Below the pieces are notes generated by a model that was given only the letters and a program-made list of their open reading frames with translations, was not told the DNA's origin and did not search any database. DNA of 64,000 nucleotides from positions 1,674,001 through 1,738,000 of the forward strand of contig NZ_CP048812.1 in NCBI RefSeq assembly GCF_010977575.1. Reading direction: 5' to 3'. Source of the DNA: Halomonas socia. GTDB lineage: Bacteria > Pseudomonadota > Gammaproteobacteria > Pseudomonadales > Halomonadaceae. A program made the translations under genes and the position numbers. This document shows, piece by piece, positions 42,543 through 60,536 of the stretch (positions within the stretch are counted from its first letter, which is position 1; each line of letters starts with the position of its first letter).

Positions 42543-43016
42543 TTAAGGCAGGTAGACGCGGAACACCACGGTGAACAGCACGTAGATCACGGCAATCGCG
42601 CCCGTCGCGGTGAGCAGCGAGGTAATCGCCTTGCCGCGGCGCAGGAAGATCATCGCCAGCATCAGAAAGACGAAGGTGCTGAGGAAAAAACTGGCCGGCT
42701 CGATGGCGATCAGGTAGACCACTGCCAGTGCCGAGAATACCAGCACGTTGAGCGGGAAGTGCTGACGCAGGAAGGCCATGAGCTCGTCCAGCGCACCTTG
42801 GGTATCGGGCTTGTGCTTGCGGCGGTGGCCGGCCAACACGGCGATCGAGGAGGCGATCAGGATCAGCGACAGGCCGATGGGAAAGGCCCCGGCCGAGTTG
42901 ATCGAAGAGAAGCCGGTGATCTGGTAGGCGTGGTAGAAGACGGCGCCGCTGAACAGCAGCAGTAGCCAGTCGAAGACGCGCTCGCCGACCTGCAGCTTGT
43001 CGGGTTTGTTGTCCAT
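42543..43016 (-). CDS. tctB: Tripartite tricarboxylate transporter, small membrane subunit TctB
   Basis: A 157-residue four-helix protein of the TctB family. It starts MDNKPDKLQVGERVFDWLLL and has GAFPIGLSLILIASSIAVLAG (helix 2), then FFLSTFVFLMLAMIFLRRGK. TctB is weakly conserved, and its assignment rests on hydrophobic pattern and its place between tctC and tctA. GGAG precedes the ATG. The 33-base gap to tctA supports one operon. Confidence 0.9.
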   Translation of the reverse strand: MDNKPDKLQVGERVFDWLLLLFSGAVFYHAYQITGFSSINSAGAFPIGLSLILIASSIAVLAGHRRKHKPDTQGALDELMAFLRQHFPLNVLVFSALAVVYLIAIEPASFFLSTFVFLMLAMIFLRRGKAITSLLTATGAIAVIYVLFTVVFRVYLP

Positions 43017-43079: not shown

Positions 43080-44087
43080 TTACGGACGCGGGATACCGAG
43101 CTCCTCCGGAGAGACCTCGATGGTTTCTGCTTCGGCGTCGTACATCGACCAGGCGGTCACCGACTGCCAATTGTCGAGGTACTGCTGGGCTTCGTCGCCT
43201 GACAGGTTCAGTGGGGCGCCACCGAAGTCGTCGAGGAACTGCTGGAACTCGTCCGAGGCCACGGCATTGTAGTAGGCATCCTCGAGCACCGCCTTGACGT
43301 CGTCGGGAGTGTCCTGATGCACGAAGACGCCCCAGAACGGCCCCCACGGCAGGAACGACTCGATCTCCGGCAGCGCCTCGGTGATTGGCGGTACGCCCGG
43401 CAGGTCCTCGATCTCTTCATCGGAGAGCACCGCGAGACCCTTGAGGCGACCGCCACGAATCTGCTCGGCCACCGCCGACAGGCTCAACGGCATGAAATCG
43501 ATATGTTCGCCGAGCAGCGCCGTGACGCCGGGGCCGTCGCCACCGAAGGTCACGTCGCGGATCTCCAACTCGTCCACCGCGTTGATCATGGCGTGCACAG
43601 TGCTCGGCAGGCCGCCGGCGCCGGTGCCGCCCATGCGCAGCTCGCCGGGATTCTCCTTGGCGTACTCGAGCAGCTCACCGAAGTCCTCGAAGGGGCTGTC
43701 GGGATGGGTGGCGATCACTACCAGGCCCTGGCCAATGATATTGACGGTGTGCATGTCGTCATAGGTGAAGTCGGCCAGGCCCATCAGCGGGTAGAGCTGC
43801 GGGTTCTCGGCGCCGAACAGCAGGTTGTAGCCGTCCGGGCGCTGGTTCATGACGTGGTTCATGCCGATCACGCCGGTGCCGCCGGCGCGGTTGGTCAGCA
43901 CGATGGTGGTGCCCAGCGCCTCCTCGACGTGGGGCGTGAGGCTGCGGATCACGTTGTCGGTGGCGCCACCTGCGCCCCACTGGATGGTGCCCTGGATATT
44001 GCGCTCGGGGTAGTCGGCCATGGCGGCACCGGCGATGCCGAGGGTGCCGATGGCAACGGCGAGGGCGCTAAGCGTAGGTCTGAACAT
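43080..44087 (-). CDS. tctC: Tripartite tricarboxylate transporter, periplasmic binding protein TctC
   Basis: A 335-residue periplasmic protein of the TctC/Bug family: signal peptide (about 1-24, ending GAAMA), then DYPERNIQGTIQWGAGGATDNVIRSL, the motif near the ligand-binding loop, and NRAGGTGVIGMNHVMNQRPDGY. These proteins hold di- and tricarboxylates or aromatic acids between two lobes; here the usual Asp-rich loop is present. The start at 44087 follows CCCGGAGGACACC; the frame remains open further upstream without a ribosome site. First gene of tctCBA and divergent from quiC, with tandem operator-like sites between. Confidence 0.93.
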   Translation of the reverse strand: MFRPTLSALAVAIGTLGIAGAAMADYPERNIQGTIQWGAGGATDNVIRSLTPHVEEALGTTIVLTNRAGGTGVIGMNHVMNQRPDGYNLLFGAENPQLYPLMGLADFTYDDMHTVNIIGQGLVVIATHPDSPFEDFGELLEYAKENPGELRMGGTGAGGLPSTVHAMINAVDELEIRDVTFGGDGPGVTALLGEHIDFMPLSLSAVAEQIRGGRLKGLAVLSDEEIEDLPGVPPITEALPEIESFLPWGPFWGVFVHQDTPDDVKAVLEDAYYNAVASDEFQQFLDDFGGAPLNLSGDEAQQYLDNWQSVTAWSMYDAEAETIEVSPEELGIPRP

Positions 44088-44132: not shown

Positions 44133-44166
44133 GTTCGGTTGTCGAACTTGCGTGCTAATAGCGAAC
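44133..44166. promoter_or_regulatory. Tandem PcaR-like operator pair A (tctCBA / quiC divergent region)
   Basis: Two 15-bp sites with starts 19 bp apart: GTTCGGTTGTCGAAC (44133-44147, perfect 5-bp arms) and GTGCTAATAGCGAAC (44152-44166). The form GTTCG-N5-CGMAC matches the 15-bp motif known for the IclR-type regulator PcaR of pseudomonads. The pair is 46 bases before the tctC start and 169 before quiC, inside the 247-base divergent region, and it could control both directions. The rest of this region shows nothing else I can support. Confidence 0.7.
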
Positions 44167-44334
44167 AAACTAGAATTCCTTTCCAGAACTGTCAATGCAT
44201 GATGATGGCGATGCGACTAAGGTCTTAGGCCGCCGATGGCCACGTCGAGTCGGTGTCGCCCTGCCAAGAGTGACATATAAACAATTGCCGCAGGGGGCGG
44301 GCAGTGCCCCGCCACCTGCGGCTCGGAGGACAGC

Positions 44335-46179
44335 ATGCGCGCCATTGCCACCGTCTGCCTTAGCGGCGACCTGAGAACCAAGCTGGAAGCCATTGCCCGC
44401 GCCGGCTTCGAGGGCGTTGAGATCTTCGAGAACGATCTACTCTCCTTCGACGGCTCCCCCGCCGAGCTGCGCGAGCTTTGTGAGTCGCTGGGGCTGGCGA
44501 TCGTCGCCTTCCAGCCGTTTCGCGATTTCGAGGCCATGCCCGAGCCGCAGCGCAGCCGCAACATGCAGCGCGCCGAGCGCAAGTTCGACCTGATGGAAGA
44601 ACTCGGCACCGACTTCCTGCTGGTCTGCAGCAACGTCTCGCCGCAGTGCCAGGACGACCTCGGCCAGGCTGCGGCCGACCTGCGCGAGCTGGCCGAGCGT
44701 GCCGCCAAGCGCGGCATCCGCATCGGCTTCGAGGCACTCGCCTGGGGGCGCCACATTTCCGACTATCGCGACGCCTGGGAGGTGGTGCGCCGTGCCGATC
44801 ATCCGGCGCTGGGTATCGTGCTCGACAGCTTTCATATCCTCTCCCGCGGCCACGATCTCGCGGCCATCGCGCGTATTCCCCGCGACAAGATATTCTTCGT
44901 GCAGGTGGCCGATGCGCCCCAGTTGAACATGGACGTGCTGCAGTGGAGCCGTCACTTCCGCTGCTTCCCCGGCCAGGGCCGCCTGCCGCTGCGCGACTTC
45001 ATGGTCGTGCTGGCCAAGACCGGCTATGCCGGCCCGCTGTCGCTGGAGATCTTCAACGACGCCTTCCGCGCCGGTCCCACCGAGGCCACCGCCCGCGACG
45101 GCCTGCGCTCGCTGATCCTGCTCGAGAACCTGGTCGAGGAGGGCCCCTGGGCCAGCCGTATCCCGCCGGCGCCGCAGTATAACGGCATTCATTTCATCGA
45201 GTTCACCCTCGACGAGGAGAGCGCCGCGCCGCTCGGCGAGTTTATCGATGCGCTGGGCTTTCGCCACGTGGGACGCCACCGCTCGAAGAACGTCGAGCTG
45301 TGGAAGCAGGGCGATATGCATCTGGTGCTCAACTTCGAGACCGACAGTTTTGCCCACACCTTTCGCCTGCTGCACGGCACCGCGGTATGTGCGGTGGGCT
45401 TCCGGGTCGACGACGTGGAAAAGGCGCTGGCGCGGGCCAAGGCCTTCCAGGCCCAGACCTTCCGTAGCCAGGTCGGCGAAGGCGAGATGGAGATTCCCGC
45501 GCTGCGTGGCATCGAGGGTAGCCTGGTGTATCTGGTCGACGACGAGGCCGCCAGCGACCTGCAGTGGCGCACCGACTTCGAGCTGTTCGACCAGGACAGC
45601 CGAGATGAAGCCGGCCTGACCCGGGTCGATCACCTCTCCTACGTGCTACCGGCGACCCAACTGCTCGGCTGGCAGCTATTCTATCGCACCGTATTCGGCT
45701 TCGACGCCGAGACCGAGCACGAGATCGTCGATCCCCATGGGTTGATGCTCAGCCAGGCGGTGACCAGCCCCGAGGGCTCGATCCGCCTGCCGCTGACCGT
45801 CTCCCAGGCCAGCGAGACGCTACCGGGACGCTTCCTGAGTCAGTTCCAGGGTGGCGTGCAACAGATCGCCTTCGCCAGTCGCGATATTTTCGCCAGCGTC
45901 GATGCGCTCAAGGCGCGCGGCCTGCCGCTGCTGCGCATCCCGCAGAATTACTATGACGACCTCGAGGCTCGCTACGACCTCGATGCGGCGCTGCTCGAGG
46001 CCATGCAGTCGCGCAATATCCTCTACGACCGCAGCGAGGAGGGCGAATTCTTCCACGCCTATACCGAGACCTTCTCGGGACGCTTCTTCTTCGAGATCGT
46101 CGAGCGCCGCGGCGGCTATCACCAGTTCGGTGCCGCCAATGCCGGTATCCGGCTCGCCGCCCAATCCGCCCAGCGCTAG
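44335..46179 (+). CDS. quiC: 3-dehydroshikimate dehydratase fused to an HPPD-like domain (QuiC1 type)
   Basis: A 614-residue fusion. Residues about 1-270 form a sugar-phosphate-isomerase-like TIM barrel with likely metal ligands in IGFEALAWG, GIVLDSFHIL, VQVADAP and LSLEIFND; this is the dehydratase that turns 3-dehydroshikimate into protocatechuate. Residues about 285-610 resemble 4-hydroxyphenylpyruvate dioxygenase, but of its 2-His-1-Glu iron site only H433 (VDHLSYVL) and E587 (FFFEIVERR) remain; the second His is Q510 (GVQQIAF). The C-terminal domain is therefore probably not a working dioxygenase. Pseudomonas putida QuiC1 has the same fusion. GGAGGA precedes the ATG. First gene of a three-gene operon. 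Confidence 0.92.
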   Translation: MRAIATVCLSGDLRTKLEAIARAGFEGVEIFENDLLSFDGSPAELRELCESLGLAIVAFQPFRDFEAMPEPQRSRNMQRAERKFDLMEELGTDFLLVCSNVSPQCQDDLGQAAADLRELAERAAKRGIRIGFEALAWGRHISDYRDAWEVVRRADHPALGIVLDSFHILSRGHDLAAIARIPRDKIFFVQVADAPQLNMDVLQWSRHFRCFPGQGRLPLRDFMVVLAKTGYAGPLSLEIFNDAFRAGPTEATARDGLRSLILLENLVEEGPWASRIPPAPQYNGIHFIEFTLDEESAAPLGEFIDALGFRHVGRHRSKNVELWKQGDMHLVLNFETDSFAHTFRLLHGTAVCAVGFRVDDVEKALARAKAFQAQTFRSQVGEGEMEIPALRGIEGSLVYLVDDEAASDLQWRTDFELFDQDSRDEAGLTRVDHLSYVLPATQLLGWQLFYRTVFGFDAETEHEIVDPHGLMLSQAVTSPEGSIRLPLTVSQASETLPGRFLSQFQGGVQQIAFASRDIFASVDALKARGLPLLRIPQNYYDDLEARYDLDAALLEAMQSRNILYDRSEEGEFFHAYTETFSGRFFFEIVERRGGYHQFGAANAGIRLAAQSAQR

Positions 46180-46207
46180 CGCTAGCGCTGCCATCAGGAG
46201 ATCAGCT

Positions 46208-47071
46208 ATGAAACTGGGTCTAATCGGCAAGGCCATCATGAACTCCAGCTCGCCGGACCTGCACGTACGACTCGGCCAACTGACCGGGATCCCGGCCAGC
46301 TACGACCTGTTCGATGCCAACGAGCAGCCCATCGACTCCCTGGCCAGTCAGGTCGACGAGGTGCGTGCTGCGGGCTACCGCGGGGTCAACGTCACCTTTC
46401 CCTGGAAAGAGGAGGCGGTGCGCCTGGCCACTCGCCCCAGCGAAGGGGCGCGCATGGTCGGCGCGGCCAATACCCTGGTCTTCGAGGCTGGCGAGATCGT
46501 CGCCGAGAATACCGACTTCACCGGCTTTATCAGCGGCTACCGCGCTACCCTCGGCGATCGGCCGCCGGGCCGCGTGCTGCTGCTGGGCACCGGCGGGGTG
46601 GGCAAGGCGGCGGCCTTTGCGCTGGGCAAGCTCGGCGCCAGCGAGGTGATCCTGATGGACCTCGACGCGGCCAAGTCGCGCCAGCTCGCCGACGAGCTCG
46701 CTGCCCAGGGCTTCAACGCCTCGACCATCAGTCGCGACGAGATCGCTGCCACCGTGCCTCGCTGCGATGGGCTGGTCAACTGCACCCCCATCGGCCACGA
46801 GAAGAGCCCCGGCTGCCCGCTGCCCAAGGCGCTGGTGGCGGCGCGCCACTGGATCTTCGATGCGGTCTACGTGCCGGCGGTGACCGAGTTCGTGGCCGCG
46901 GCCCAGGCCGCCGGCGCCAGCGTGATGAGCGGCGTCAGCCTGTTCGTGTTCCAGGGCGTCGACGCCTTCAAGCTGTTCTGCGAGGATGAAGCCAAGCGCG
47001 CCGCCGCCGACGCCCAGGCGGCGACCCTCTTCGCCCACTATCGGCGTGAACTGCTCAAGGAGAGCGACTGA
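46208..47071 (+). CDS. Quinate/shikimate dehydrogenase (AroE/YdiB family)
   Basis: A 287-residue NAD(P)-dependent dehydrogenase. The substrate-binding N terminus [19 protein letters not shown] replaces the usual G-x-P-I-x-x-S-x-S motif by [10 protein letters not shown], which keeps the Ser pair; the catalytic Lys is in [11 protein letters not shown] and the Asp in NTDFTGF. The nucleotide motif is [17 protein letters not shown], followed by MDLDAAKS, whose acidic Asp suggests NAD rather than NADP. Placed between quiC and aroQ, it most likely oxidises quinate or shikimate in catabolism, and is not the biosynthetic AroE. CAGGAGATCAGCT precedes the ATG at 46208. Confidence 0.9.
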
Positions 47072-47517
47072 TGAGCCAAGCCAAGGTGCTGGTGCTGCAC
47101 GGCCCCAATCTCAACCTGCTGGGCACCCGCCAGCCGGAGATCTACGGCCATGAGACCCTCGATGACATCAACAACGGTCTGTATGAAAAAGCCGCCTTCA
47201 ACGGCTGGGAGGCCAAGGCGCTGCAGAGCAACCACGAGGGCGCGCTGATCGATGCCATCCACGCTGCCAGGCTCGACGGCACCGCGGCGATCATCATCAA
47301 CCCCGCCGCCTTCACCCACACCTCGGTGGCGATCCTCGACGCCCTCAACGCCTTCGACGGCAAGGTCATCGAGGTGCATCTCTCCAACGTCCACAAGCGC
47401 GAGAGCTTCCGTCACCACTCCTACGTCTCGCTGCGCGCCGACGGGGTGATCGCCGGCCTCGGCAGCCAGGGCTACCTGGCCGCGCTGGACGCGCTGATCA
47501 AGGCCGCCAACGCCTGA
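47071..47517 (+). CDS. aroQ: 3-dehydroquinate dehydratase, type II
   Basis: A 148-residue type II dehydroquinase that interconverts dehydroquinate and dehydroshikimate. It has [19 protein letters not shown] with the catalytic Arg and Tyr, [24 protein letters not shown] and [12 protein letters not shown] with the catalytic His. It shares one base with the preceding stop (TGATG) and AAGGAG lies upstream, so it is translationally coupled. In this operon it probably serves catabolism of quinate rather than chorismate synthesis; another copy for biosynthesis would be expected elsewhere. Confidence 0.96.
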
Positions 47518-47544
47518 TTCTCAACGTTGCCGCCATGCCTGACC

Positions 47545-47578
47545 GCGAGCCCGCCCATTGGCGGGCTCGCGGCGTTTC
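47545..47578 (+). terminator. Terminator after quiC-aroQ operon
   Basis: GCGAGCCCGCC (47545-47555) pairs perfectly over 11 bp with GGCGGGCTCGC (47560-47570) around CATT; GGCGTTTC follows. The U tract is short, but the stem is strong. Confidence 0.8.
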
Positions 47579-47596
47579 AGGCTGTCTGGCTAAACC

Positions 47597-47610
47597 TTGA
47601 TCTCGATCAA
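47597..47610 (+). promoter_or_regulatory. FNR/ANR box upstream of nap
   Basis: TTGATCTCGATCAA is a perfect TTGAT-N4-ATCAA FNR/ANR site, centred 97 bases before the napE start. A class II position would put transcription start at about 47645. It indicates anaerobic or low-oxygen activation of napEFDABC. Confidence 0.85.
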
Positions 47611-47700
47611 GTGGCATAGGGGGCTCTCTTCGCTAGGCTGACAAGGGTATGCGGTGGTTTGTCACACCCGGCCAGGCCCACACCCAGCGAGGAAAGTGCC

Positions 47701-47865
47701 ATGAGCGACCCCGACAGCGCCGCGCCGTCGGTGCGCAAGCGACAAGAGCTGAAGCTGTTTCTGTTCATCTGCGTGCTGCTGTTCCCGATCCTCGCCGTGG
47801 CGGTGGTCGGCAGCTACGGCTTCGCGGTGTGGATCTACCAGATGATCGCCGGCCCGCCCGGTTGA
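47701..47865 (+). CDS. napE: Nap cluster membrane protein NapE
   Basis: A 54-residue protein with one transmembrane helix (about 18-42: LFLFICVLLFPILAVAVVGS), the size and shape of NapE, whose role in periplasmic nitrate reduction is unclear. AGGAAAG precedes the ATG at 47701. First gene after the FNR box. Confidence 0.88.
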   Translation: MSDPDSAAPSVRKRQELKLFLFICVLLFPILAVAVVGSYGFAVWIYQMIAGPPG

Positions 47866-47877
47866 GTCGGTGACGCC

Positions 47878-48396
47878 ATGACGTATAACAACAAGGCGCA
47901 TCGCCAACCGGATCGCCGCCAGTTCTTCCGCACCTTGAGCGGACGCCCCTCCGTGCGCCGGCCACCATGGACCGCCGATGACCTGACCCAGCGCTGCACC
48001 GGCTGCGATGCCTGCATCGACGCCTGCCCGGAGGGCGTGCTGGTGCGCGGCGGCGGCGGTTTTCCCGAGATCCGCTTCGATGACGACGGCTGCTCGCTGT
48101 GCGGCGACTGCGCTGCGGTGTGCGAGGCGGACGTCTTCGATACCCAGCGCCAGGCGTTTGCCTGGCACGCGGGGCTCGAGGCCAACTGCCTGGCGCTGGC
48201 ACAGATTCACTGCCAGGCCTGCCAGGACGCCTGCGAGTGGCGCGCCATCCGCTTTTCACCGGCGCTGGGTCGCCCGCCGCAGCCGCATATCGACAGCGCG
48301 GCCTGTCGCGGCTGCGGCGCCTGTCTGGCGGTGTGCCCTAACGATGCCATCACCCTGGCCGACAACGGCCCTGTGCAACCCGGAGCGCGCCGATGA
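47878..48396 (+). CDS. napF: Iron-sulfur protein NapF
   Basis: A 172-residue cytoplasmic ferredoxin-like protein for NapA maturation. Cys clusters: CTGCDACIDACP (about 40-51), CSLCGDCAAVCE (about 73-84), a third group in CLALAQIHCQACQDAC, and CRGCGACLAVCP (about 146-157). The ribosome site before ATG 47878 is weak, but the spacing to napE is 12 bases. It overlaps napD by four bases. Confidence 0.93.
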   Translation: MTYNNKAHRQPDRRQFFRTLSGRPSVRRPPWTADDLTQRCTGCDACIDACPEGVLVRGGGGFPEIRFDDDGCSLCGDCAAVCEADVFDTQRQAFAWHAGLEANCLALAQIHCQACQDACEWRAIRFSPALGRPPQPHIDSAACRGCGACLAVCPNDAITLADNGPVQPGARR

Positions 48397-48671
48397 GCCA
48401 AGAGACGCTGCATATCGCCAGCTTTATCGTCCATGTCCGGCCGCCGCGGCTGGCGGAGGTGGCCGCCTGGCTGAATGCCGCCGGCGACTGCGAGGTCCGT
48501 GGCGAAGACGCCACGGGCAAGCTGGTGGCGGTAGTGGAGAGCTTTCAGGAGAGCCGTGCGCTCGACCTGATCGATGCCGTACAGACACGGCCCGGCGTGC
48601 TTGGCGCGGCGCTGGTCTACCATCAGCTGCTCGACCCGGCCACCGCCGATGAACTGCATGAGGGGGCATGA
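48393..48671 (+). CDS. napD: NapA signal-peptide-binding chaperone NapD
   Basis: A 92-residue NapD homologue: [38 protein letters not shown] and the C-terminal [16 protein letters not shown] match the ferredoxin-fold chaperone that holds the NapA Tat signal until cofactor insertion. ATGA overlap with napF, and it shares a base with napA. Confidence 0.94.
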
Positions 48672-51175
48672 TGAAACTGACACGTCGCGAATTCGTAAAG
48701 GCCAATGCGGCCGCCGTGGCCGCCGCCAGCGCGGGGATCGCGATCCCCGCCGGGGCCACCAACCTGATCACCAACGCCGAGCTGACCCGGCTCAACTGGA
48801 ACAAGGCGCCGTGCCGCTTCTGCGGGGTCGGCTGCAGCGTCATGGTCGCCACCCAGAACGACCGCATCGTCGCCACCCACGGCGATATTCACTCCGAGGT
48901 CAACCGCGGGCTGAACTGCGTCAAGGGCTACTTCCTGTCGAAGATCCTCTACGGCGAGGACCGCCTGACCCAGCCGCTGTTGCGCAAGCGCAACGGCGCC
49001 TATGCCAAGGACGGCGACTTCGAGGCGGTGTCCTGGGACGAGGCGCTGGACGTGATGGCCGACAAGTTCAAGCAGGCGATCCGCGAGCACGGTCCGGATA
49101 GCGTGGCGATGTTCGGCTCCGGGCAGTGGACGATCTGGGAAGGCTATGCCGCCAGCAAGCTGTTCAAGGCCGGCCTGCGCACCAACAACATCGATCCCAA
49201 TGCCCGCCACTGCATGGCCTCGGCGGTGTTCGGCTTCATGCGCAGCTTCGGCTCCGACGAGCCGATGGGCGTCTACGACGATATCGAGCATGCCGACGCC
49301 TTCGTGCTGTGGGGCTCGAACATGGCCGAGATGCACCCGGTGCTGTGGACCCGGGTCACCGATCGCCGGCTCTCCTACCCGGACACCCGGGTGGCGGTGC
49401 TCTCCACCTACGAGCATCGCAGCTTCGACCTGGCCGACATCCCCATGGTGATGACGCCCAACGCCGACATCGTGATCCTCAACTACATCGCCAACCACAT
49501 CATCCAGAGCGGCAACGTCGATCGTGACTTCGTCGATAGCCACGTCGGCTTCGCCCGCGGCGTGGACGACATCGGCTACGGCCTGCGCGACGAGCATCCG
49601 CTGCAGCAGGCCGCGGCCAACGCCGACAACGCCAACTCCTGGTCGGAGATGAGCTTCGAGGAATTCGCCGACTACGTCGCCGACTACACCCTCGAGCGCG
49701 CCGCACGGGAGTCCGGCGTGTCGGAAAATCGCCTGGCGCAGCTCGCCGAGCTCTACGCCGACCCCGACACCAAGGTCATGACCTTCTGGACCATGGGCGT
49801 CAACCAGCACACCCGCGGTGTGTGGGTGAACAACCTGATCTACAACCTGCACCTGCTCACCGGCAAGATCTCCGAGCCCGGCAACAGCCCGTTCTCGCTC
49901 ACCGGCCAGCCCTCGGCCTGCGGCACCGCCCGCGAAGTGGGTACCTTCGCCCACCGCCTGCCCGCCGACCGCGTGGTCACCAACCCCGAGCATCGCCGCG
50001 ACGCCGAGGAGATCTGGCTGCTGCCCGAGGGCACCGTTCCCGAGCGGGTCGGCTTCCACGCCGTGGAGCAGAGCCGCAAGCTCAAGGACGGCGAGATCAA
50101 GGTCTACTGGACCCAGGTGTGCAACAACATGCACGCCGGCCCCAACACCATGCAGGAGATCCTGCCCGGCTGGCGCAACCCCGAGGCCTTCGTGATCGTC
50201 TCGGACATCTATCCCACCGCCTCGGCGCAGTCCGCCGACCTGATCCTGCCGGCGGCCAGCTGGGTCGAGAAGGAGGGCGCCTTCGGCAACTCCGAGCGGC
50301 GCACCCAGTTCTTCCACCAACTGGTCAACGCCCCCGGCGAGGCGCGCTCCGACCTGTGGCAGACCCTGGCGCTGGCCAAGCGCATCCGCGTCGACGAGGT
50401 GTGGCCCGAGGAACTGCTCGAGGCGGCCCCCGAGCTGCGTGACAAGACGCTGTTCGAGCTGCTCTACGCCAACGGCCAGGTCGACCGCTACCCGCTCTCC
50501 GACATGGAGGAGGGCTACGCCAACCAGGAGGCCGCGGAGCTGGGCTTCTACGTCCAGAAGGGGCTGTTCGAGGAGTACGCCCGCTTCGGTCGCGGCAAGG
50601 GCAAGGACCTCGACGACTTCGACGTCTATCACCAGACCCGCGGCAAGCGCTGGCCGGTGGTCGGCGGCCGCGAGACCCTATGGCGCTACCGCGAGGGCTA
50701 CGACCCCTACGTCGAGGAGGGCCGCGGCGTGCAGTTCTACGCCAAGCCCGACGACCGCGCGCTGATCTTCGCGGTGCCCGACGAGCCGGCCCCGGAGCGC
50801 CCCGACGACGACTACCCCTACTGGCTGTGCACCGGCCGCGTGCTGGAGCACTGGCACACCGGCTCGATGACCCGCCGGGTGTCGGAGCTGCACCGCGCGG
50901 TGCCCGAGGCACTGCTCTACATGCATCCCGAGGACGCCCGCGCCGAAGGCGTGCGGCGCGGCAGCGAGGTCAAGGTCACCAGCCGCCGTGGCGAGATCCG
51001 CCTGCGGGTCGAGACCCGCGGCCGTGTGCGGCCGCCCCAGGGGCTGGTCTATGTACCGTTCTTCGACGCCAACCGCCTGATCAACAAGCTGGTGCTGGAT
51101 GCCACCGACCCGATCTCCAAGCAGACCGACTTCAAGAAGTGTGCGGTGCGCCTGGAGCTGCTCAACCTGGCCTGA
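48671..51175 (+). CDS. napA: Periplasmic nitrate reductase catalytic subunit
   Basis: An 834-residue molybdopterin enzyme reducing nitrate in the periplasm. The Tat signal is [19 protein letters not shown] (residues 4-22). The [4Fe-4S] cluster Cys are C48, C51, C55 and C83 (CRFCGVGC and NCVKGY), and the molybdenum ligand is C181 in ARHCMASAV. Size agrees with known NapA (about 830). The coding start is ATGATG at 48668-48673; the second ATG is at better distance from AGGGGG. It receives electrons from NapB and NapC encoded behind it. Confidence 0.97.
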
Positions 51176-51198
51176 GGCCGCCAGCAAGGAGACATGCG

Positions 51199-51687
51199 AT
51201 GAAATGGCTTACCGCTCTATGCCTTTCCACGGCGCTGGCCTGGGCTGGCATCACGCTCGCCGATGACCATCCCCGGGCCTCGGCGCCGGACGGCCTGCGC
51301 CAGGGCGGCACCGTCGCCGACACGCTGCCGGCGCCGCCCATGGCCGGCCAGTCCCGCGAGTCGGGGCGCGAGGTGCTCAACTACCCCGAGCAGCCGCCGG
51401 TGGTGCCGCACAATATTCGCGACTACCAGGTCGACCTGCGCCACAACCAGTGCCTGACCTGCCACAGCCGCGAGAACGCGGTGAGCGCCGGGGCGCCGAT
51501 GGTCAGCGTCACCCACTTCATGGACCGCCACAAGCAGGTGCTGGCGGCGGTCTCTCCCGACCGCTACTTCTGTACCCAGTGCCACGTGCCCCAGACCGAC
51601 GCCGCGCCGCTGGTAGAAAACCGCTTCCAGACCGTCGACCAGGTGCTCGGTGAGATGCTCCGCGAAAGCCAGGGAGGTGAGCCATGA
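51199..51687 (+). CDS. napB: Diheme cytochrome NapB
   Basis: A 162-residue periplasmic electron-transfer subunit of nitrate reductase: signal peptide (about 1-21, ending ITLADD), two heme motifs CLTCHS and CTQCHV, and additional His ligands in [20 protein letters not shown] precedes the ATG at 51199. It overlaps napC by four bases. Confidence 0.95.
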
Positions 51688-52367
51688 AGCGCTGGCTGGG
51701 CCGCTACTGGCGGCTGCTCACCCGCCCCAGCGTGCACTTCAGCCTGGGGTTCCTGACCCTGGGCGGCTTTATCGCCGGGATCATCTTCTGGGGCGGCTTC
51801 AACACCGCCATGGAGGCCACCAATACCCAGCAGTTCTGTGTCGCGTGCCACGAGATGGAGCGCAATCCGCTGCGCGAGATGCAGGACACCATCCACTACA
51901 CCAACCGCTCCGGGGTCAGGGCGCAGTGTGCCGACTGCCATGTGCCCCACGGCTGGACCCACAAGATCGCGCGCAAGATGGAGGCCTCCAAGGAGGTATG
52001 GGGCTGGGTGTTCGGCAGCATCCGCACCGAGGAGCAGTTCGAGGAGAAACGCCTGGAGCTGGCCCAGCGCGAATGGGCGCGGCTCGAGGCCAACGACTCG
52101 CTGGAGTGCCGCAACTGTCACGAGTTCGAGCACATGGACTTCACCGCCCAGAGCAGTCGCGCGGCCCGCGCCCACTCCACCTCGCTGGCCAGCGGCGAGG
52201 CGACCTGCATCGACTGCCACAAGGGCATCGCCCACGATCTGCCCGCCGGGCATCACGGCGGCTACGAGGCGGCCGCCCTGGAAGCGGGCATTCCCGACGT
52301 GATCTCCTGGGTGACGCATCTGGGCCGCGCCGAGGCGGCCAAGCCCAGTCAACTGACAGCGCCTTAG
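51684..52367 (+). CDS. napC: Tetraheme quinol dehydrogenase NapC
   Basis: A 227-residue NapC/NirT-family cytochrome c with one N-terminal membrane anchor (about 18-40) and four heme motifs: CVACH, CADCH, CRNCH and CIDCH. It passes electrons from quinol to NapB and NapA. The motif [16 protein letters not shown] and distal HTS... AHST region are typical. ATGA overlap with napB. The cluster is napEFDABC without napGH, so NapC is the only quinol oxidase here. Confidence 0.96.
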
Positions 52368-52374
52368 GCTTCGC

Positions 52375-53265
52375 TCAAGTCCGCCGCGTAGCGAGAAATA
52401 TCCCGGCGCCGATGATCAGCACGGCGCCGAGGTAGACCTGCAGCAGCGGCACGTCGCCGAACACCAGGTAGCCGAACAGCGAGGCCCATACGATCTGGGT
52501 GTAGAGGAACGGCGAGACCAGCGAGGCCGGCGCGCAGCGCATGGCCAGGATCAGCGCCAGCTGGCTGACCGCGCCAAGCAGCCCGACCATCAGAAACAAC
52601 GGCATGTCACCCAGCGCGATGGGCGTCCAGAACAGCGGCACCACGGCGCTGCTGACCAGGGCGCCGGCCAGGCCGGCGTAGAACAGCGAGGTCAGCGGGT
52701 GGTCGTGGCGGCCGAAGCGCCGTGTGGTCAGCTGGTAGAGCGCGAAGCACAGCGTCATGCCGAACGGCAGCAGTGCCGCGGGCTGGGCGCGCCAGTCGAC
52801 AGGCCCCACGGCGATGATCACGCCGACGAAGCCCACTGCCACCGCAGCCCCTCGCGCCGGGGTGACGCGCTCCTTGAGCAGCGGAATCGCCAGCAGGGTC
52901 ACCAGCAGCGGCGCGCTGAAATTGACCACATAGACCTGCAACAGCGGCAGGTCGCGCAGCGCCAGGTAGGCGAAGGTGCTGGCGCCGAACAGCAGCAGGC
53001 CGCGCAGCACCTGCCCGAGTAGCGACTCGGTGTGCATCAGCTCGCGGCAGCGCGGCCACCCCAGCCAGACCAGATAGCCGCCCAGCACCAGCATGTGTCC
53101 GGCGTAGCGTGCCCACACCACTTGGATAGGCGAGTAGTCCTGGCCGAGCAGCTTGACGCCGGTGTCGAGCAGCACGAACAGCAGCCCGGCGGCGAGCATA
53201 AAGCCGATGCCGCGTAGCGGGCGGTCGCCGGGCAGTTGTACGGTGAGGCTGGGGGGTGTCGCCAT
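52375..53265 (-). CDS. EamA/DMT-family transporter
   Basis: A 296-residue ten-helix protein of the drug/metabolite transporter superfamily with two EamA repeats (about 15-140 and 160-290): GIGFMLAAGLLFVLLDTGVKL and FAYLALRDLPLLQVYVVNFS in the first, SPFLYTQIVWASLFGYLVFGD in the second. The substrate is unknown. GGGAG precedes the ATG. Its upstream region carries operator pair B and a 21-bp perfect palindrome, so it may belong to the qui/pca regulon, perhaps as exporter or importer of an aromatic or hydroaromatic acid. The stop is 7 bases from the napC stop. Confidence 0.92.
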   Translation of the reverse strand: MATPPSLTVQLPGDRPLRGIGFMLAAGLLFVLLDTGVKLLGQDYSPIQVVWARYAGHMLVLGGYLVWLGWPRCRELMHTESLLGQVLRGLLLFGASTFAYLALRDLPLLQVYVVNFSAPLLVTLLAIPLLKERVTPARGAAVAVGFVGVIIAVGPVDWRAQPAALLPFGMTLCFALYQLTTRRFGRHDHPLTSLFYAGLAGALVSSAVVPLFWTPIALGDMPLFLMVGLLGAVSQLALILAMRCAPASLVSPFLYTQIVWASLFGYLVFGDVPLLQVYLGAVLIIGAGIFLATRRT

Positions 53266-53363
53266 GGGGCTCCCGGATCGTGATGAACCATTATGTTAGC
53301 AGGCTATCTTGATCAGCGCTGAGCATGGCCCGATGCAGCGGTGAGAACACGCGCCAATAAAAA

Positions 53364-53384
53364 TACTGGAACTTGGTTCCAGTA
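53364..53384. promoter_or_regulatory. Perfect 21-bp palindrome upstream of the EamA gene
   Basis: TACTGGAAC (53364-53372) and GTTCCAGTA (53376-53384) are exact reverse complements around TTG. The core TGGAAC-N3-GTTCCA resembles the TGGAAAT-N-ATTTCCA type recognised by some IclR regulators. It is 99 bases before the EamA start. An adjacent GGCTA-AGC-TAGCC repeat (53385-53397) follows. Confidence 0.6.
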
Positions 53385-53404
53385 GGCTAAGCTAGCCATG
53401 CGGT

Positions 53405-53438
53405 GTTTGCAAGGCGCACAAAAGTTCGCAATCTGGCA
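53405..53438. promoter_or_regulatory. Tandem PcaR-like operator pair B (upstream of EamA gene)
   Basis: GTTTGCAAGGCGCAC (53405-53419) and GTTCGCAATCTGGCA (53424-53438) start 19 bp apart, as in pairs A, C and D. The first differs from GTTCG-N5-CGCAC at one position; the second keeps only the left arm. The pair is in the 190-base gap between the AEC stop and the EamA start, and would act on the EamA gene. Confidence 0.5.
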
Positions 53439-53455
53439 ATAAAGTGGTCGCTGCC

Positions 53456-54406
53456 CTAGCCAGGCAGCAGGCCGGCCAGGCTGAGCAGCCAGATCGCTAG
53501 GCTGAGCGTGACGAAGGAGGCCAGGGTGGTGACCATCATCGCCGCGGCGGTGATATCGCCGACCCCGTAGCGCTGGCCGAACAGCGGATAGACGCTGATC
53601 ATCGGCGCGCAGGCGAACAACAGGGCGCCGGCCATCAGCAGCGAGTCCATGGGCGGCAGCAGCAGGATCATTGCCAGCACCGCCAGCGGATGCAGGACCA
53701 GCTTGCCGAGCACGATCTGGCCGATGTCGCGGCCCATGCCCTTGGGCTTGAGGCCGTAGAGGGCGCCGCCGATCACGAACAGCGCCGCCGGTGCCGCCGC
53801 AGTGGCCAGCATGTCAACCACGCGGTAGAGCGGGCCGGGTAGCGACGCTCCGCTGGCCGAAAGCATGACACCCAGGGCCAGGCCGATCAGGATCGGGTTG
53901 CGCACCAGGCGCTGGGCGGTCTGGCGCAGCGCGGCACCCAGGCTGGCGCCGCGCTGGCTGCCCAGTTCGGCGAGGATCAGCGCGGCGGGGATCACCAGCA
54001 AATTCTCGATCAGCATGTTCAGCGCCAGGAACACCGCCGCCGGCGAGCCGAGCACCATCAGCGCCACCGGGAAACCGATGAAGCCGCTGTTGGAGGCGGT
54101 CATGCCCAGCGCATGCAAGGCACTGGTGGTCAGCGGCTGGCGCTGCCAGCGCCACGTCAGCAGCAGGGCGAACAGGAAGATCAGCGCCGAGCCGAGGCCG
54201 TAGGCCAGCAGGTAGCCGAGATGCACCACCTCCTCCAGCGGATACTCGGTGAGCGCGCGGATCACCAGCGCCGGCAGCGCGAAGTAGAGTACGAAGGTGC
54301 TCACGCCCTGCATCTGCTCGCGGCTGGTGATGCGCAGGCGCATGGCCAGGTAGCCGAGGCCGATGAGCAGGAAGATCGGTGTGGTGATACCCAGGATCGC
54401 GAGCAT
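53456..54406 (-). CDS. AEC (auxin efflux carrier-like) transporter
   Basis: A 316-residue ten-helix permease of the AEC family: TPIFLLIGLGYLAMRLRI at the N terminus, VLYFALPALVIRAL, and NSGFIGFPVALMVLGSPAAVF (about 113-133) with the family's typical N-x-G-F-x-G-x-P motif, and a second half that mirrors it. Bacterial AEC proteins carry malonate, malate or other organic acids. AAGGAGG precedes the ATG. It is 23 bases behind an IclR regulator on the same strand, so it forms an operon with it; neither has a pathway gene adjacent. Confidence 0.92.
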   Translation of the reverse strand: MLAILGITTPIFLLIGLGYLAMRLRITSREQMQGVSTFVLYFALPALVIRALTEYPLEEVVHLGYLLAYGLGSALIFLFALLLTWRWQRQPLTTSALHALGMTASNSGFIGFPVALMVLGSPAAVFLALNMLIENLLVIPAALILAELGSQRGASLGAALRQTAQRLVRNPILIGLALGVMLSASGASLPGPLYRVVDMLATAAAPAALFVIGGALYGLKPKGMGRDIGQIVLGKLVLHPLAVLAMILLLPPMDSLLMAGALLFACAPMISVYPLFGQRYGVGDITAAAMMVTTLASFVTLSLAIWLLSLAGLLPG

Positions 54407-54429
54407 TCAGGCCTCCTTGCCAGCGAGCG

Positions 54430-55209
54430 TTAACTGAAGACGTTGGACGCCTGACTGGTCTGCGACAGCTCCTCGGCGGCCTTGAGCAGCTTGGGCGCCA
54501 GGGCGTGCATCTGCGACTCGGTGAGGCGCACGCTGGGGCCGGCGATGCTCAGCACGCCGATCACGTGGCCGTCGCGGGGGTGGCGCACCACGGCCGCCAG
54601 CGCCGAGGTGCCGGCGCCGGCGTTGTCGACCTGCCAGCTGTAGCCGCTGGCGCGGGCGCGCTCGAGCCGCTCGAGCAGCTCGGCGTGGCTACGCGGGGCG
54701 TTGGGGCCGTAGTCGTCGGGGTTGCCGATGCCCTGGGCCTCGACCAGGGCGATGGCGTCCTCGTCGCTGAGGCTGGCCAGCCAGGCGTGACCCGAGGCGG
54801 TGTAGTAGAGCGGCGCCTCGCGGCCCATGTCGGGGTCGTAGCGCAGCCCGCTGCGGGCGCCCTGGGCCTTGGCGATCCAGATCTGGCGCTGGCCCTCGAC
54901 CACCCCCAGGCGCACCATCTCGCCGGACTCGGCGGCGAGGTGGTCGAGGATCGGCTGGACGATGTCGCTGGTGCCGCTGATCGCCATGTAGTGGAAGCCC
55001 ATCGCCATCAGCCGCGTCGACAGCAGGTAGTAGTGGCTGGCGGGGTCCTGGCGGACATAGCCGAGGCGAATCAGTTCGGAGCAGATGCGGTGGACGGCGC
55101 TCTTGGGAATCTCGAGCCGTTCGGCGATGCTCTGCAGGGGCAGGCCGCGGGCATCACGAGACAGTGTTTCCAGTACACCCAGGGTGCGCTCGATCAGGCT
55201 GAGAGCCAT
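54430..55209 (-). CDS. IclR-family transcriptional regulator
   Basis: A 259-residue IclR regulator: N-terminal winged helix (about 1-65, RGLPLQSIAERLEIPKSAVH then RICSELIRLGYV) and effector domain (about 75-250, with GQRQIWIAKAQG, YTASGHAWLASL and VIGVLSIAGPSVRLTE). It is upstream of the AEC transporter and downstream of a second IclR gene (34-base gap), all on the minus strand. It could bind the 21-bp palindrome near the EamA gene, which has the symmetry of IclR-type sites; this is inference. No effector can be named. Confidence 0.93.
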   Translation of the reverse strand: MALSLIERTLGVLETLSRDARGLPLQSIAERLEIPKSAVHRICSELIRLGYVRQDPASHYYLLSTRLMAMGFHYMAISGTSDIVQPILDHLAAESGEMVRLGVVEGQRQIWIAKAQGARSGLRYDPDMGREAPLYYTASGHAWLASLSDEDAIALVEAQGIGNPDDYGPNAPRSHAELLERLERARASGYSWQVDNAGAGTSALAAVVRHPRDGHVIGVLSIAGPSVRLTESQMHALAPKLLKAAEELSQTSQASNVFS

Positions 55210-55243
55210 GGTCTGGATCCTTCGATGACGACGAGTGAGTGGC

Positions 55244-56035
55244 TCAGCTGACGTGGGTGCGGATCAGCCGTGCCTTCTTCTGCAGCAGCGGCAGGAAATG
55301 GCCGGTCAGGGTCTCGAGGTCGATGCGTGCGGCGTTGGTGCTGATGTTGATCGCGCCCAGCAACCGGCCGTTGGCATCGAAGGCCGGTATCGCCAGCGAA
55401 CGCAGGCCGGAATCCAGTTCCTGGTCGGAGACCGCATAGCCCTGCTTGCGCACCTTGAGCACACAAGCCTTGAGTTCGTCCTTGTCGGTGATGGTCTTGT
55501 CGGTGTAGCGCTCCAGCACCACGCGCTCGAGGTAGGCGTCAAGCTCGGCATCGGGTAGCTGAGCCAGCAACACCCGGCCCATGGACGTGTGCGCGGCGGG
55601 CAGCCGGGTGCCCACCGAGAGGGTGATCGCCATCAGGCGATGCTTGGCCGCTGAGCGCGCCACATAGATCACCTCGTCGCCATCCAGCACGCCCAACGAG
55701 GAGGACTCGCCGATCTCGGCGGTGATATCCTCGAGATACTGCTGGATCACGCTGCGGTAGTTGTTGGCCGACAGGAACGAGTAGCCAAGCTGCAGCACCT
55801 TGGGCGCCAGCTCGAAGTAGCGCTGCTGTTTGCGCACATAGCCCAGCGAGTGCAGGGTGAGCAGGAAACGCCGCGCGCGGGCGCGGTTCATGCCGGTGCG
55901 GGCGGCCACTTCGCTGAGGGTCATGCGCGGGTTGGCGCCGTCGAAGGCGAGGATGACTTCCAGGCCGCTGGCTAGCGCCGTCACGAAGTCGCGGTCGTCC
56001 GGCTGCAGCGTATCCTGTTGGATGGGGGCGTTCAT
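55244..56035 (-). CDS. pcaR: IclR-family regulator of the PcaR/PobR group
   Basis: A 263-residue IclR regulator of the group that controls protocatechuate degradation. The segment FVTALASGLEVILAFDGANP followed by MTLSEVAARTGMNRARARRF (about residues 17-60) is typical for PcaR, PcaU, PobR and CatR; the effector domain includes SLGVLDGDEVIYVARSAAKH and LPAAHTSMGRVLLA. It is divergent from pcaB, with operator pair C between, and is the best candidate to bind the four related site pairs of this window. In pseudomonads PcaR activates pca genes in response to 3-oxoadipate. The symbol is given by group and context. Confidence 0.88.
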   Translation of the reverse strand: MNAPIQQDTLQPDDRDFVTALASGLEVILAFDGANPRMTLSEVAARTGMNRARARRFLLTLHSLGYVRKQQRYFELAPKVLQLGYSFLSANNYRSVIQQYLEDITAEIGESSSLGVLDGDEVIYVARSAAKHRLMAITLSVGTRLPAAHTSMGRVLLAQLPDAELDAYLERVVLERYTDKTITDKDELKACVLKVRKQGYAVSDQELDSGLRSLAIPAFDANGRLLGAINISTNAARIDLETLTGHFLPLLQKKARLIRTHVS

Positions 56036-56090
56036 GCCGTCGTTATCCTTATCGATGTTGCTGTTGGGGCAGACTTCAATCTAGCATATT

Positions 56091-56124
56091 GTTCGAAGTG
56101 CGAACAGTTGTTCGAATGATGCGT
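56091..56124. promoter_or_regulatory. Tandem PcaR-like operator pair C (pcaR / pcaB divergent region)
   Basis: GTTCGAAGTGCGAAC (56091-56105, perfect arms) and GTTCGAATGATGCGT (56110-56124, left arm perfect) start 19 bp apart. The pair is 55 bases before pcaR and 33 before pcaB, well placed for autoregulation and for control of pcaB. Confidence 0.75.
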
Positions 56125-56157
56125 AAGTAAAGTGCTGCCCTGTCCACGGAGATTCCC

Positions 56158-57486
56158 ATGCCCGCCGCCCTGATCCAACACCCTTTCATGAGCGCCGACG
56201 GCCTGGCCGCTTGCCACGGCCAGGCCATGGTTAAGGCCATGTTGGCCTTCGAACTGGCCCTGGCCGAGGCCCAGGAGGCCGAGGCCGCGCTGCCCGCCGG
56301 CACCAGTCAACGGCTGCGCGAGCGCCTCGCGGGCCACCCTTTCGATCTCGACGCTCTGGCTGCCGGCGTGGCCAGCGGCGGCAACGTGGCGATTCCCTTC
56401 GTCAAGCAGGCCCGCGCGGCGCTGCCCGATGAGCTCAAGCGCTACTTCCACCAGGGGGCGACCAGCCAGGACGTGGTCGACAGCGCCCTGATGCTGCTGC
56501 TCAAGTCGCGCCTGGCGCGGCTCGATGCGCTGCTGGTGCGCTGCCGGGTAGCGGGCATCGCACTGATGCAGGTCCATGACCAGACCGTGATGGTGGGGCG
56601 CACCCTGATGCAGCAGGCGCTGCCGACCACCTTCGGGGTGCGGGTGGCGCAATGGACGCTGGGCCTCGAGCAGGCCCGCCGTCGCCTGGCCGGGGTCGCG
56701 CTGCCGGTGCAGTTCGGTGGCGCCGTGGGCGTGCACTCCGGCTGGGGCGCGCTGGGCCTGACGTTCATGGACGGCATCGCCGAGCGCCTCGGCCTGGCGG
56801 CCCCGGTGCTGCCTTGGCATACCGACCGCCAGCCTATCCACGCCCTGGGCACGGCGCTGGATGCCGCGGCCGGGGCGGCCGAGAAGCTGGCCCTGGACGT
56901 GGCGCTGCTGACCCAGACCGAGCTTGGCGAGGTCGCCGAACCTGCCGGCGAGGGCATGGGCGAGTCGTCGTCGATGCCGCACAAGCGCAATCCGGTGCGC
57001 TGCGCGCTGATCCGCGGTGCGGCCCGCCAGGTGCACGGCCACACCACGGTGCTGCTCAACGCTGCGGCCCAGCCGCTGGAGCGCGGCCTCGGCGAGTGGC
57101 ACGCCGAGTGGACGCCGCTGATCGACGGCACCCTGCTGCTGGAAGGCGCCCTGGAGCAGGCGGCGGTGCTGCTCGAAGGCCTGGAGGTGAACCCCGAGGC
57201 GATGCGGCGCAACCTGGCGATAACCGGTGGGGCGATCATGGCCGAGCCGGTGGCCATGCTGCTGGCGCCGGCGCTGGGCCAGGACGCCGCCAAGCGCCTC
57301 AGTGCCGAGGCCGCCGAGACGGCCCGCCGAGAAGGGCGCGCTTATGCCGAGGTGCTGGCCGAGCATGCGGAGATCAAGGGGCAGGTAGCGGAGGATGAAC
57401 TGGCCCGAGCCTGCGACCCGGGGTTATACATTGGTAGTAGCAAGCAGCAGGTCAAGCGCACCGTCAGTTGGCTCGAGGGAAGTTAA
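56158..57486 (+). CDS. pcaB: 3-carboxy-cis,cis-muconate cycloisomerase
   Basis: A 442-residue member of the aspartase/fumarase superfamily. The signature GSSSMPHKRNP appears here as GESSSMPHKRNPVRC (about residue 265-280), with TSQDVVDSALMLLLKS (about 100) and RTLMQQALPTTFGVRVAQW typical for PcaB. It converts 3-carboxymuconate to 4-carboxymuconolactone, the step after protocatechuate 3,4-dioxygenase, whose genes are not in the window. ACGGAG precedes the ATG. It has its own terminator and is therefore transcribed apart from pcaIJF-DC. Confidence 0.94.
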   Translation: MPAALIQHPFMSADGLAACHGQAMVKAMLAFELALAEAQEAEAALPAGTSQRLRERLAGHPFDLDALAAGVASGGNVAIPFVKQARAALPDELKRYFHQGATSQDVVDSALMLLLKSRLARLDALLVRCRVAGIALMQVHDQTVMVGRTLMQQALPTTFGVRVAQWTLGLEQARRRLAGVALPVQFGGAVGVHSGWGALGLTFMDGIAERLGLAAPVLPWHTDRQPIHALGTALDAAAGAAEKLALDVALLTQTELGEVAEPAGEGMGESSSMPHKRNPVRCALIRGAARQVHGHTTVLLNAAAQPLERGLGEWHAEWTPLIDGTLLLEGALEQAAVLLEGLEVNPEAMRRNLAITGGAIMAEPVAMLLAPALGQDAAKRLSAEAAETARREGRAYAEVLAEHAEIKGQVAEDELARACDPGLYIGSSKQQVKRTVSWLEGS

Positions 57487-57517
57487 TTAATTGTAAATAA
57501 AGTATTTTTCATAAAAC

Positions 57518-57549
57518 AAAAAGGGGAAGGCCATGGCCTTCCCCTTTTT
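57518..57549 (+). terminator. Terminator of pcaB
   Basis: AAAAAGGGGAAGGCC (57518-57532) and GGCCTTCCCCTTTTT (57535-57549) pair perfectly over 15 bp around AT, ending in five T. The A and T flanks make it usable in both directions. Confidence 0.92.
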
Positions 57550-57584
57550 CGTGGTTTGACGGTTATCAGTGAAGGGATTATTTT

Positions 57585-57618
57585 GTTCGTATCACAAACC
57601 TAAGTTCGCAATGCGCAC
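57585..57618. promoter_or_regulatory. Tandem PcaR-like operator pair D (upstream of pcaI)
   Basis: GTTCGTATCACAAAC (57585-57599) and GTTCGCAATGCGCAC (57604-57618) start 19 bp apart. The second fits GTTCG-N5-CGCAC exactly. It lies between the pcaB terminator and pcaI, 42 bases before the pcaI start, so it probably covers the pcaI promoter. Confidence 0.75.
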
Positions 57619-57660: not shown

Positions 57661-58479
57661 ATGGCCGAGTTCCTCAGCTTGCATGACGCGGTGGCCCGCT
57701 ACGTCGAAGACGGCGCCACCGTGGCCATGGAAGGCTTTACCCACCTGATTCCCTTTGCCGCGGGTCACGAAGTGATCCGCCAGGGTAAGCGCGACCTGAC
57801 CCTGATCCGCCTGACCCCGGACCTGGTCTACGACCAACTGATCGGCGCCGGCTGCGCCAAGAAGGTGATCTTCTCGTGGGGTGGCAACCCCGGAGTGGGC
57901 TCGCTGCACCGCCTGCGCGACGCTGTGGAGAAGGGCTGGCCGCACCAGATCGAGATCCTCGAGCACAGCCACGCCGCCATGGCCTGCGCCTTCGAGGCCG
58001 GCGCGGCGGGCCTGCCGCTGGCGGTGCTGCGCGGCTACGTGGGCAGCGAGTTGCCCAGCGTCAACGACCAGATCAAGTTCATCGAGTGCCCGTTCACCGG
58101 CGAGCGCCTGGCTGCGGTGCCCTCGGTGCGTCCGGATGTCTCCATCGTCCACGCCCAGCGCGCCGACCGCGCCGGCAACGTGCTGGTGGAGGGCATCGTC
58201 GGGGTGCAGAAGGAGGCGGTGCTGGCCGCCAAGCACAGCATCGTCACCGTCGAGGAGATCGTCGACGACCTCGGCGCCACGCCCAACGCCTGCGTGATTC
58301 CGGGCTGGGCGATCAGCGCCGTGGCGGTGGCCGAGAAGGGTGCCTACCCCTCCTACACTCACGGTTACTACGATCGCGATAACCGCTTCTACAAGGAGTG
58401 GGACGCCATCGCCCGCGACCGAGACGCCTTTACCCAGTGGCTCGATGACAACGTCTACAACGCCGGAGGCGCCGCCTGA
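57661..58479 (+). CDS. pcaI: 3-oxoadipate CoA-transferase, subunit A
   Basis: A 272-residue CoA-transferase alpha subunit. FLSLHDAVARYVEDGATVAMEGFTHLIPFAA at the N terminus is typical, with the glycine-rich CoA-binding part at about 20-35; VNDQIKFIECPFTGE and IVHAQRADRAGNVLVEG follow. With PcaJ it moves CoA from succinyl-CoA to 3-oxoadipate. Length and the GLAG-less N terminus match the longer type found beside catI-like genes. GAGGCAAACATC precedes the ATG; it shares one base with pcaJ (TGATG). Confidence 0.93.
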   Translation: MAEFLSLHDAVARYVEDGATVAMEGFTHLIPFAAGHEVIRQGKRDLTLIRLTPDLVYDQLIGAGCAKKVIFSWGGNPGVGSLHRLRDAVEKGWPHQIEILEHSHAAMACAFEAGAAGLPLAVLRGYVGSELPSVNDQIKFIECPFTGERLAAVPSVRPDVSIVHAQRADRAGNVLVEGIVGVQKEAVLAAKHSIVTVEEIVDDLGATPNACVIPGWAISAVAVAEKGAYPSYTHGYYDRDNRFYKEWDAIARDRDAFTQWLDDNVYNAGGAA

Positions 58480-59252: not shown

Positions 59253-59274
59253 GCCGAACAGGAGAACCGTACCA

Positions 59275-60477: not shown

Positions 60478-60536
60478 GAATGTGTTAAATCGGACGCCGA
60501 GCGTTTGCCTTGGTGATTCGTTATGGGAGAGCTCGA

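Follow-up and report, generated by a model that had tools for sequence, protein, structure and literature searches.

Genes and Paired Sites of the Locus

The window analyzed here, a 64-kb stretch of the Halomonas socia genome (bases 1674001–1738000 of the 4.75 Mb single-contig chromosome, G000), carries the gene of PcaR, a regulator of the IclR family, and four pairs of short sites that are likely to be its operators. The pcaR gene (55244–56035, minus strand) scores 304.1 bits on the family model TIGR02431, above the cut-off of 284.75, which upholds the PcaR-like identity given to it in the original prediction. Among the named records searched, the protein has its best match in Halomonas salipaludis, at 100% identity; Halomonas sp. 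ML-15 and Franzmannia pantelleriensis come next, at 95% and 94%. The gene adjoins those of the beta-ketoadipate pathway: pcaB (56158–57486, plus; 360.2 bits on PRK09053, under its cut-off of 595), pcaI, pcaJ and pcaF (57661–60477, plus; open reading frames that are neighbors in many relatives too, with PcaI below the cut-off of TIGR02429 and the other two named by eye) and a pcaD-pcaC fusion (60510–61730, plus; 374.4 bits on NF051488, slightly below the cut-off of 390).

A tripartite tricarboxylate transporter (TTT) is encoded on the minus strand by tctC, the gene of the substrate-binding protein (43080–44087; Pfam TctC, 122.8 bits), a tctB-like gene for a small membrane protein (42543–43016; named by eye from its open reading frame and the gene order) and a tctA-like gene for a large membrane protein (41007–42509; an open reading frame with no NCBIfam match, named by eye). 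Divergently, on the plus strand, lie quiC for 3-dehydroshikimate dehydratase (44335–46179; 761.7 bits on NCBIfam QuiC, below its cut-off of 1200), an aroE-like gene for shikimate dehydrogenase (46187–47071) and an aroQ-like gene for 3-dehydroquinate dehydratase (47071–47517), the last two being open reading frames named by eye. An EamA-family transporter gene (52375–53265, minus; Pfam EamA, 74.2 bits) stands between these genes and pcaR.

The four pairs lie where they had been predicted, and in each of them the second site starts 19 bp after the first. Pair A (44133–44166, minus), the presumed tctCBA operator, is placed between tctCBA and quiC-aroE-aroQ, with GTTCGGTTGTCGAAC at 44133 and GTGCTAATAGCGAAC at 44152; in tctC orientation it reads GTTCGCTATTAGCAC-gcaa-GTTCGACAACCGAAC. 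Pair B (53405–53438, minus) is a weak candidate operator 5′ of EamA, with GTTTGCAAGGCGCAC at 53405 and GTTCGCAATCTGGCA at 53424. Pair C (56091–56124), between pcaR and pcaB, joins the palindrome GTTCGAAGTGCGAAC at 56091 to GTTCGAATGATGCGT at 56110, and pair D (57585–57618, plus), the presumed pcaIJ operator, consists of GTTCGTATCACAAAC at 57585 and GTTCGCAATGCGCAC at 57604. Against the consensus GTKCG-N5-CGMAC, with a maximum of 10 per site and 20 per pair, the sites score 10 + 9 (A), 9 + 6 (B), 10 + 7 (C) and 9 + 10 (D). The expected two 15-bp sites per pair are thus found in A and D, which are nearly two full palindromes of the group 1 motif, with their centers within the 18–22 nt of tandem IclR operators. 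B and C are three-box units and not two full sites, because their second sites, with 6 and 7 of 10, are half-sites.

Spacing and Scores Compared to Chance

Two sets of sequences were used to judge the pairs: 80 named loci with a PcaR relative (1.58 Mb in all), and, as a chance control, stretches of 400 kb from the same chromosome as the window. In the named loci, a spacing of 19 is found in 68 pairs with a score of 18 of 20 or more, and every other spacing between 15 and 40 is represented at most once; a first-order Markov control at the same score yields no pair with a spacing of 19 and no more than one with any other. The spacing of 19 is not chance. At spacing 19, pairs of at least 18 of 20 are absent from the control and occur twice in the window (A and D). 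At 17 of 20 there is one in the control and there are four in the window, the fourth being inside a long open reading frame at 39875. Pair B scores 15 of 20, and at this threshold the control holds 11 pairs and the window five. By consensus counting, C is hardly and B is not at all above chance. As a sole test, such counting sufficed for A and D and failed for B and C, and a position weight matrix was therefore added.

The matrix derives from 54 operators of pcaI, tct and quiC that are all absent from the examined DNA of the window's genus. It gives 53.5 bits to D, 40.3 to A, 22.5 to C and 21.0 to B, and the best of 798,520 control positions reaches 14.4 bits (the next 5.1). None of the control positions reaches any of A to D in matrix bits. 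The 14.4-bit match (L194 position 5402, around 2135402 of G000) lies approximately 350–400 bp 5′ of another IclR-family gene and therefore may not be noise.

Two further models were applied. A model of 50 pcaI operator sites, all from genera other than the window's, has D as its top match in the window. The four pairs account for six of its eight window matches at E ≤ 10, with poor E-values (1.2 to 7.1) for A and B. A second operator model, R2, gives at least 10 matches at E ≤ 10 over the chromosome, in six places that all lie within 45 kb (1718131–1763140). These are A, B (E 0.13) and C (E 0.84), both weak in this search, D, and sites 7 and 25 kb past the window, in front of an ABC (ATP-binding cassette) receptor and a TRAP (tripartite ATP-independent periplasmic) receptor, respectively. 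The scan scored 150 of 258 first-look candidates; it is not exhaustive and may have passed over a weak site in another part of the chromosome.

Conservation of the Presumed Operators in Relatives

The spacing of 19 is kept in related genomes. Of the named loci with pcaI, 61 of 62 have a spacing-19 pair at this gene, Marinobacter and Marinobacterium included. In a sample of 201 genomes of the family, 39 have a QuiC locus (identity at least 61%), and a tct-type pair with spacing 19 is present in 28 of these, so that the operator of tctCBA is conserved as well. In front of pcaR, a strong palindrome is common among the named loci and the second site is variable.

Control of quiC through pair A, as originally proposed, has weak support at best. 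A second, separate pair closer to quiC occurs in 24 of the 39 QuiC loci; no such pair was found in L097–L100, which belong to the window's genus, or in L101. A decayed copy of this pair was looked for in the window. The alignment fell on pair A, and a suggestive block at approximately 44190 proved to be the candidate −35 element of tctC; therefore no relic of the quiC pair is claimed. No pair was present at the 11 QuiC paralogs of around 47% identity that were examined. QuiC without PcaR occurs in two genomes (G015 and G071), neither with a pair; they are not discriminating, because PcaR-positive genomes with a similarly divergent QuiC mostly have no pair either.

Pair B is a weak member. Upstream matches of more than 18 bits were kept at three of 30 EamA loci (L127–L129), all of the window's genus; the remaining loci of this genus have a 9.0-bit match (L131) or an unrelated one of 11.7 bits (L130). 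Among loci of other genera, a different pair (15.5 bits) is seen in L138, and the matches of L148 and L149 are located past the end of the EamA gene, around 1260 bp downstream of its start. EamA was dropped as a solid regulon member, as conservation did not uphold it, and B is treated as doubtful because of this poor conservation. That B, together with the weak half of C, is a chance resemblance is a serious possibility that falls only a little short of an even one. The narrow conservation and the ease with which the control produces its consensus score speak for chance, whereas its matrix score above every control position, its place among the six R2 locations and a 23.2-bit B-like pair 386 bp upstream of EamA in a more distant relative (L012) speak for a genuine site.

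Some neighborhood features of EamA were noted as well. In the window, a run of genes for a nap-type periplasmic nitrate reductase (47878–52367, by eye) separates aroQ from EamA, unlike in some relatives, where EamA is close to aroE and aroQ. In G049, a genome of the same genus (locus L130), EamA is present and PcaR, PcaI, QuiC and the operator were not found at the cut-offs used; a pcaF fragment just upstream of EamA makes this look like a deletion of the pca region.

Promoter Placement

The operators of pcaI and tctC have the same position relative to their candidate promoters, TTGACN-N17-TATTTT or TAGTTT followed at once by the operator. For pcaI, the candidate −35 element is TTGACG (57556–57561, plus) and the −10 element TATTTT (57579–57584, plus), which abuts pair D at 57585. 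For tctC, the candidate elements are TTGACA (44190–44195, minus) and, 17 bp away, TAGTTT (44167–44172, minus), abutting pair A, which runs from 44166 downward. When spacers of 16–18 and small offsets were allowed and a pcaI −35 element was counted at no less than five of six matches to TTGACA, it was in place in 60 of 61 pcaI promoters; a perfect TTGACA was in place in 27 of 27 aligned tct operators, compared to 3% of shuffled upstream regions. The 24 quiC-proximal operators of relatives are arranged differently: 17 have TTGNCA in place, 19 contain CATAAT within the first site, and the spacer is unusually long (19 bp). At pcaI and tctC the operator would thus lie over the presumed transcription start, and at quiC of relatives over the presumed −10 element. 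For pcaR, a candidate −10 element, TATGCT (56083–56088, minus), is found next to pair C, and TATGCTAGATTG stands beside the palindrome in six of the nine relatives printed. Between pcaB and pcaI, an inverted repeat with A and T runs (57518–57549) is probably a terminator, judged by eye.

PcaR as the Probable Binding Protein

The protein that binds the four pairs is probably the local PcaR (55244–56035). The window PcaR matches chain 8eju with a phmmer E-value of 1.7e-63, and this chain is named as PcaR of Pseudomonas putida (PMC12455658). At genome-level cut-offs of E ≤ 1e-90 for PcaR, E ≤ 0.001 for model R2 and E ≤ 1e-60 for PcaI, PcaR is present in 136 of the 201 family genomes and the operator in 130: both occur in 130 genomes, PcaR only in six, the operator only in none and neither in 65. 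PcaI is found in 128 genomes, all PcaR-positive. The possibility that the operator tracks pcaI and not PcaR was considered and set aside, as five of the eight genomes with PcaR and without PcaI keep the operator; though the numbers are small, the operator therefore goes with PcaR even where pcaI is lacking.

A competitor is encoded next to PcaR. The second IclR-family gene (54430–55209, minus) is in the same gene run and is followed, 3′ of both regulators, by a gene for an AEC-type transporter (53456–54406, minus; TIGR00946, 72.4 bits, under the cut-off). Its product, with 121.6 bits on the PcaR/PcaU/PobR model TIGR02431 (below the cut-off), might bind some or all pairs or share them with PcaR. 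This is very improbable: tblastn finds the protein in only seven of the 80 named loci, within the fetched DNA, as compared with an operator in 61 of 62 pcaI loci. In addition, a perfect palindrome of another IclR motif type, CTGGAACTTGGTTCCAG (53366–53382), resembling the group 2 motif, lies 5′ of EamA and may be the second regulator's own site. Among the loci scanned, the exact CTGGAACTTGGTTCCAG recurs only in L007, L127 and L128, with a variant in L062.

Binding by PcaR is thus preferred, and several points weigh against it. The second sites of B and C are incomplete. A spacing of 20 instead of 19 occurs in L036 (pcaI) and L104 (tct), and the aligned tct operators had themselves been selected for spacing 19. 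Of the QuiC orthologs with 61–70% identity only one in eight has a pair. No site was found within 350 bp upstream of pcaH (G000 1757480), so that the pcaHG genes (1757480–1758801), for which the original prediction had raised the question of an operator, do not appear to carry one there. An R2 match was not seen in six of the 136 PcaR-positive genomes. Some of the training sites of model R2 came from this family, although not from the genus of the window. The sampled genomes are related, by which the counts are not independent trials.

Taken together, the single regulon originally proposed is well supported, at the level of sequence, for pcaI and tctCBA, by conserved copies, and for pcaR/pcaB, by the conserved palindrome. 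It is weak for EamA, and for quiC through pair A it is weak at best.

Proposed Mode of Control

One operator unit would span approximately 34 bp and comprise two 15-bp IclR sites, usually a full palindrome with one or two half-sites. Since the symmetry centers are 19 bp apart, two PcaR dimers could sit on one unit about two helical turns from each other; such an arrangement is the published reading of IclR tandems (PMC8222616). Because the unit lies right behind the −10 element, over the presumed start, PcaR without inducer should block RNA polymerase at pcaI (pair D) and tctC (pair A). A pathway metabolite would then release the protein; the analogy with P. putida points to a dicarboxylate, for instance beta-ketoadipate. 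Protocatechuate is an alternative inducer, by analogy with PcaU. PcaR may also control its own gene through pair C. The regulon would in this way join TTT uptake to the 3-oxoadipate pathway, with quiC included in relatives through its separate operator, and pair B at EamA would be a possible but weak extra site.

The position of the operator behind the −10 element at pcaI and tctC suggests repression relieved by a metabolite. PcaR could also activate its targets, as reported for P. putida, with weak promoter elements that need the regulator; we consider this rather unlikely. The title of a 1999 paper by Guo and Houghton names activation and repression through −35 and −10 elements, and the −10 hexamers TATTTT and TAGTTT are indeed imperfect. 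However, the unit begins behind the −10 element and not upstream of this element, and hybrid promoters that carried a PcaR box in such a position were repressed (PMC12455658). Repression is therefore the preferred sign, albeit an uncertain one, because a dual behavior as repressor and activator has been reported for P. putida PcaR (PMC12455658).

Presumed Operators in Front of Other Transporters

The matrix finds 125 places with more than 18 bits in the 80 named loci, and several of these are upstream of transporter genes other than tctCBA. The operator stands 5′ of a second, distant TctC (23–27% identity to the one in the window) in 16 loci, in 13 of which the gene is divergent from pcaR. It is furthermore found 5′ of a third TctC-family protein (L008) and 5′ of DctP receptors (L013, L032). 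In L039 it lies between two genes, one for a short-chain fatty acid transporter and the other for a 3-hydroxyacyl-CoA dehydrogenase, and open reading frames of like sizes occur in seven other loci. Another operator is located at a protein of the major facilitator superfamily (MFS) in L085, named by eye. These additional genes were outside the training set.

The two chromosomal sites past the window also precede transporter genes. The nearer one, 7.3 kb past the window (1745298–1745321 of G000; around position 9300 of L091), has the sequence GTTCGTTATTCGAAC, a perfect palindrome in front of the gene for a branched-chain-type ABC receptor, and it is the second best match on the chromosome to model R1. 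The other (1763113–1763140; approximately 7105–7140 of L096) has three boxes, CGAAC-gtta-GTTCGTATCACGAAC, and precedes a TRAP receptor that adjoins vanA/vanB-like genes (names by eye). It has 8.4 bits in the matrix, which is less than the best control position (14.4). Within the window, two overlapping open reading frames behind the pca genes (62823–63913) look by eye like a split transposase.

These cases allow a tentative generalization, which we regard as possible and still somewhat doubtful. The PcaR unit of the Halomonadaceae could be a portable socket, where lineages swap the importer and keep the control, with importers whose substrates would be aromatic or hydroaromatic acids. Such a reading spans three TctC lineages, two TRAP receptors, an ABC receptor, a fatty acid transporter, an MFS protein and perhaps EamA. 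If true, importer substrates would be predictable from the operator alone, and several uncharacterized importers would be pointed to aromatic acid catabolism. The operator is also sharp and testable for a whole salt-tolerant family that is of interest for the conversion of lignin and plastic monomers. Its fixed position behind the −10 element predicts the sign of control and would offer a ready promoter part.

Comparison with Known Systems

The IclR-family protein TtgV reportedly binds one operator as a cooperative tetramer; its operator differs from the units described here. Suvorova and Gelfand (2021; PMC8222616) predicted tandem IclR sites 18–22 nt apart for 94 orthologous groups. Their work also predicts three-box sites, places a set of quinate/shikimate genes under IclR regulators and links COG3181 and COG3333 (TctC and TctA) to aromatic metabolism genes in such regulons. 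The tandem spacing was therefore abandoned as a new feature, and neither the two-site design nor TTT genes in IclR regulons are new in kind, which softens the novelty that had been attached to tctCBA. The units found here resemble these tandems in their spacing of 19 and their group 1 motif; unlike here, Halomonas has no occurrence in the main text of that paper. Among the papers listed by searches of an open library, no description of a PcaR regulon of Halomonas was found in titles and abstract starts. New here, as far as such a search extends, would be the Halomonadaceae regulon, the constant placement relative to the promoter and the recurrence of one operator at a series of unrelated transporters.

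In Acinetobacter baylyi, PcaU and PobR recognize a palindrome with an external half-site, the half-site being required for binding of PcaU (PMC8222616). Pairs B and C resemble this three-box design, whereas A and D are close to two full sites. As in P. putida, an IclR regulator of the protocatechuate branch, above the cut-off of the family model, is present. The operator of P. putida PcaR is the 15-bp sequence GTTCGATAATCGCAC (PMC12455658). Unlike in that species, a paired unit lies behind the −10 element here, tctCBA joins the presumed regulon, and quiC and other transporters do so in relatives.

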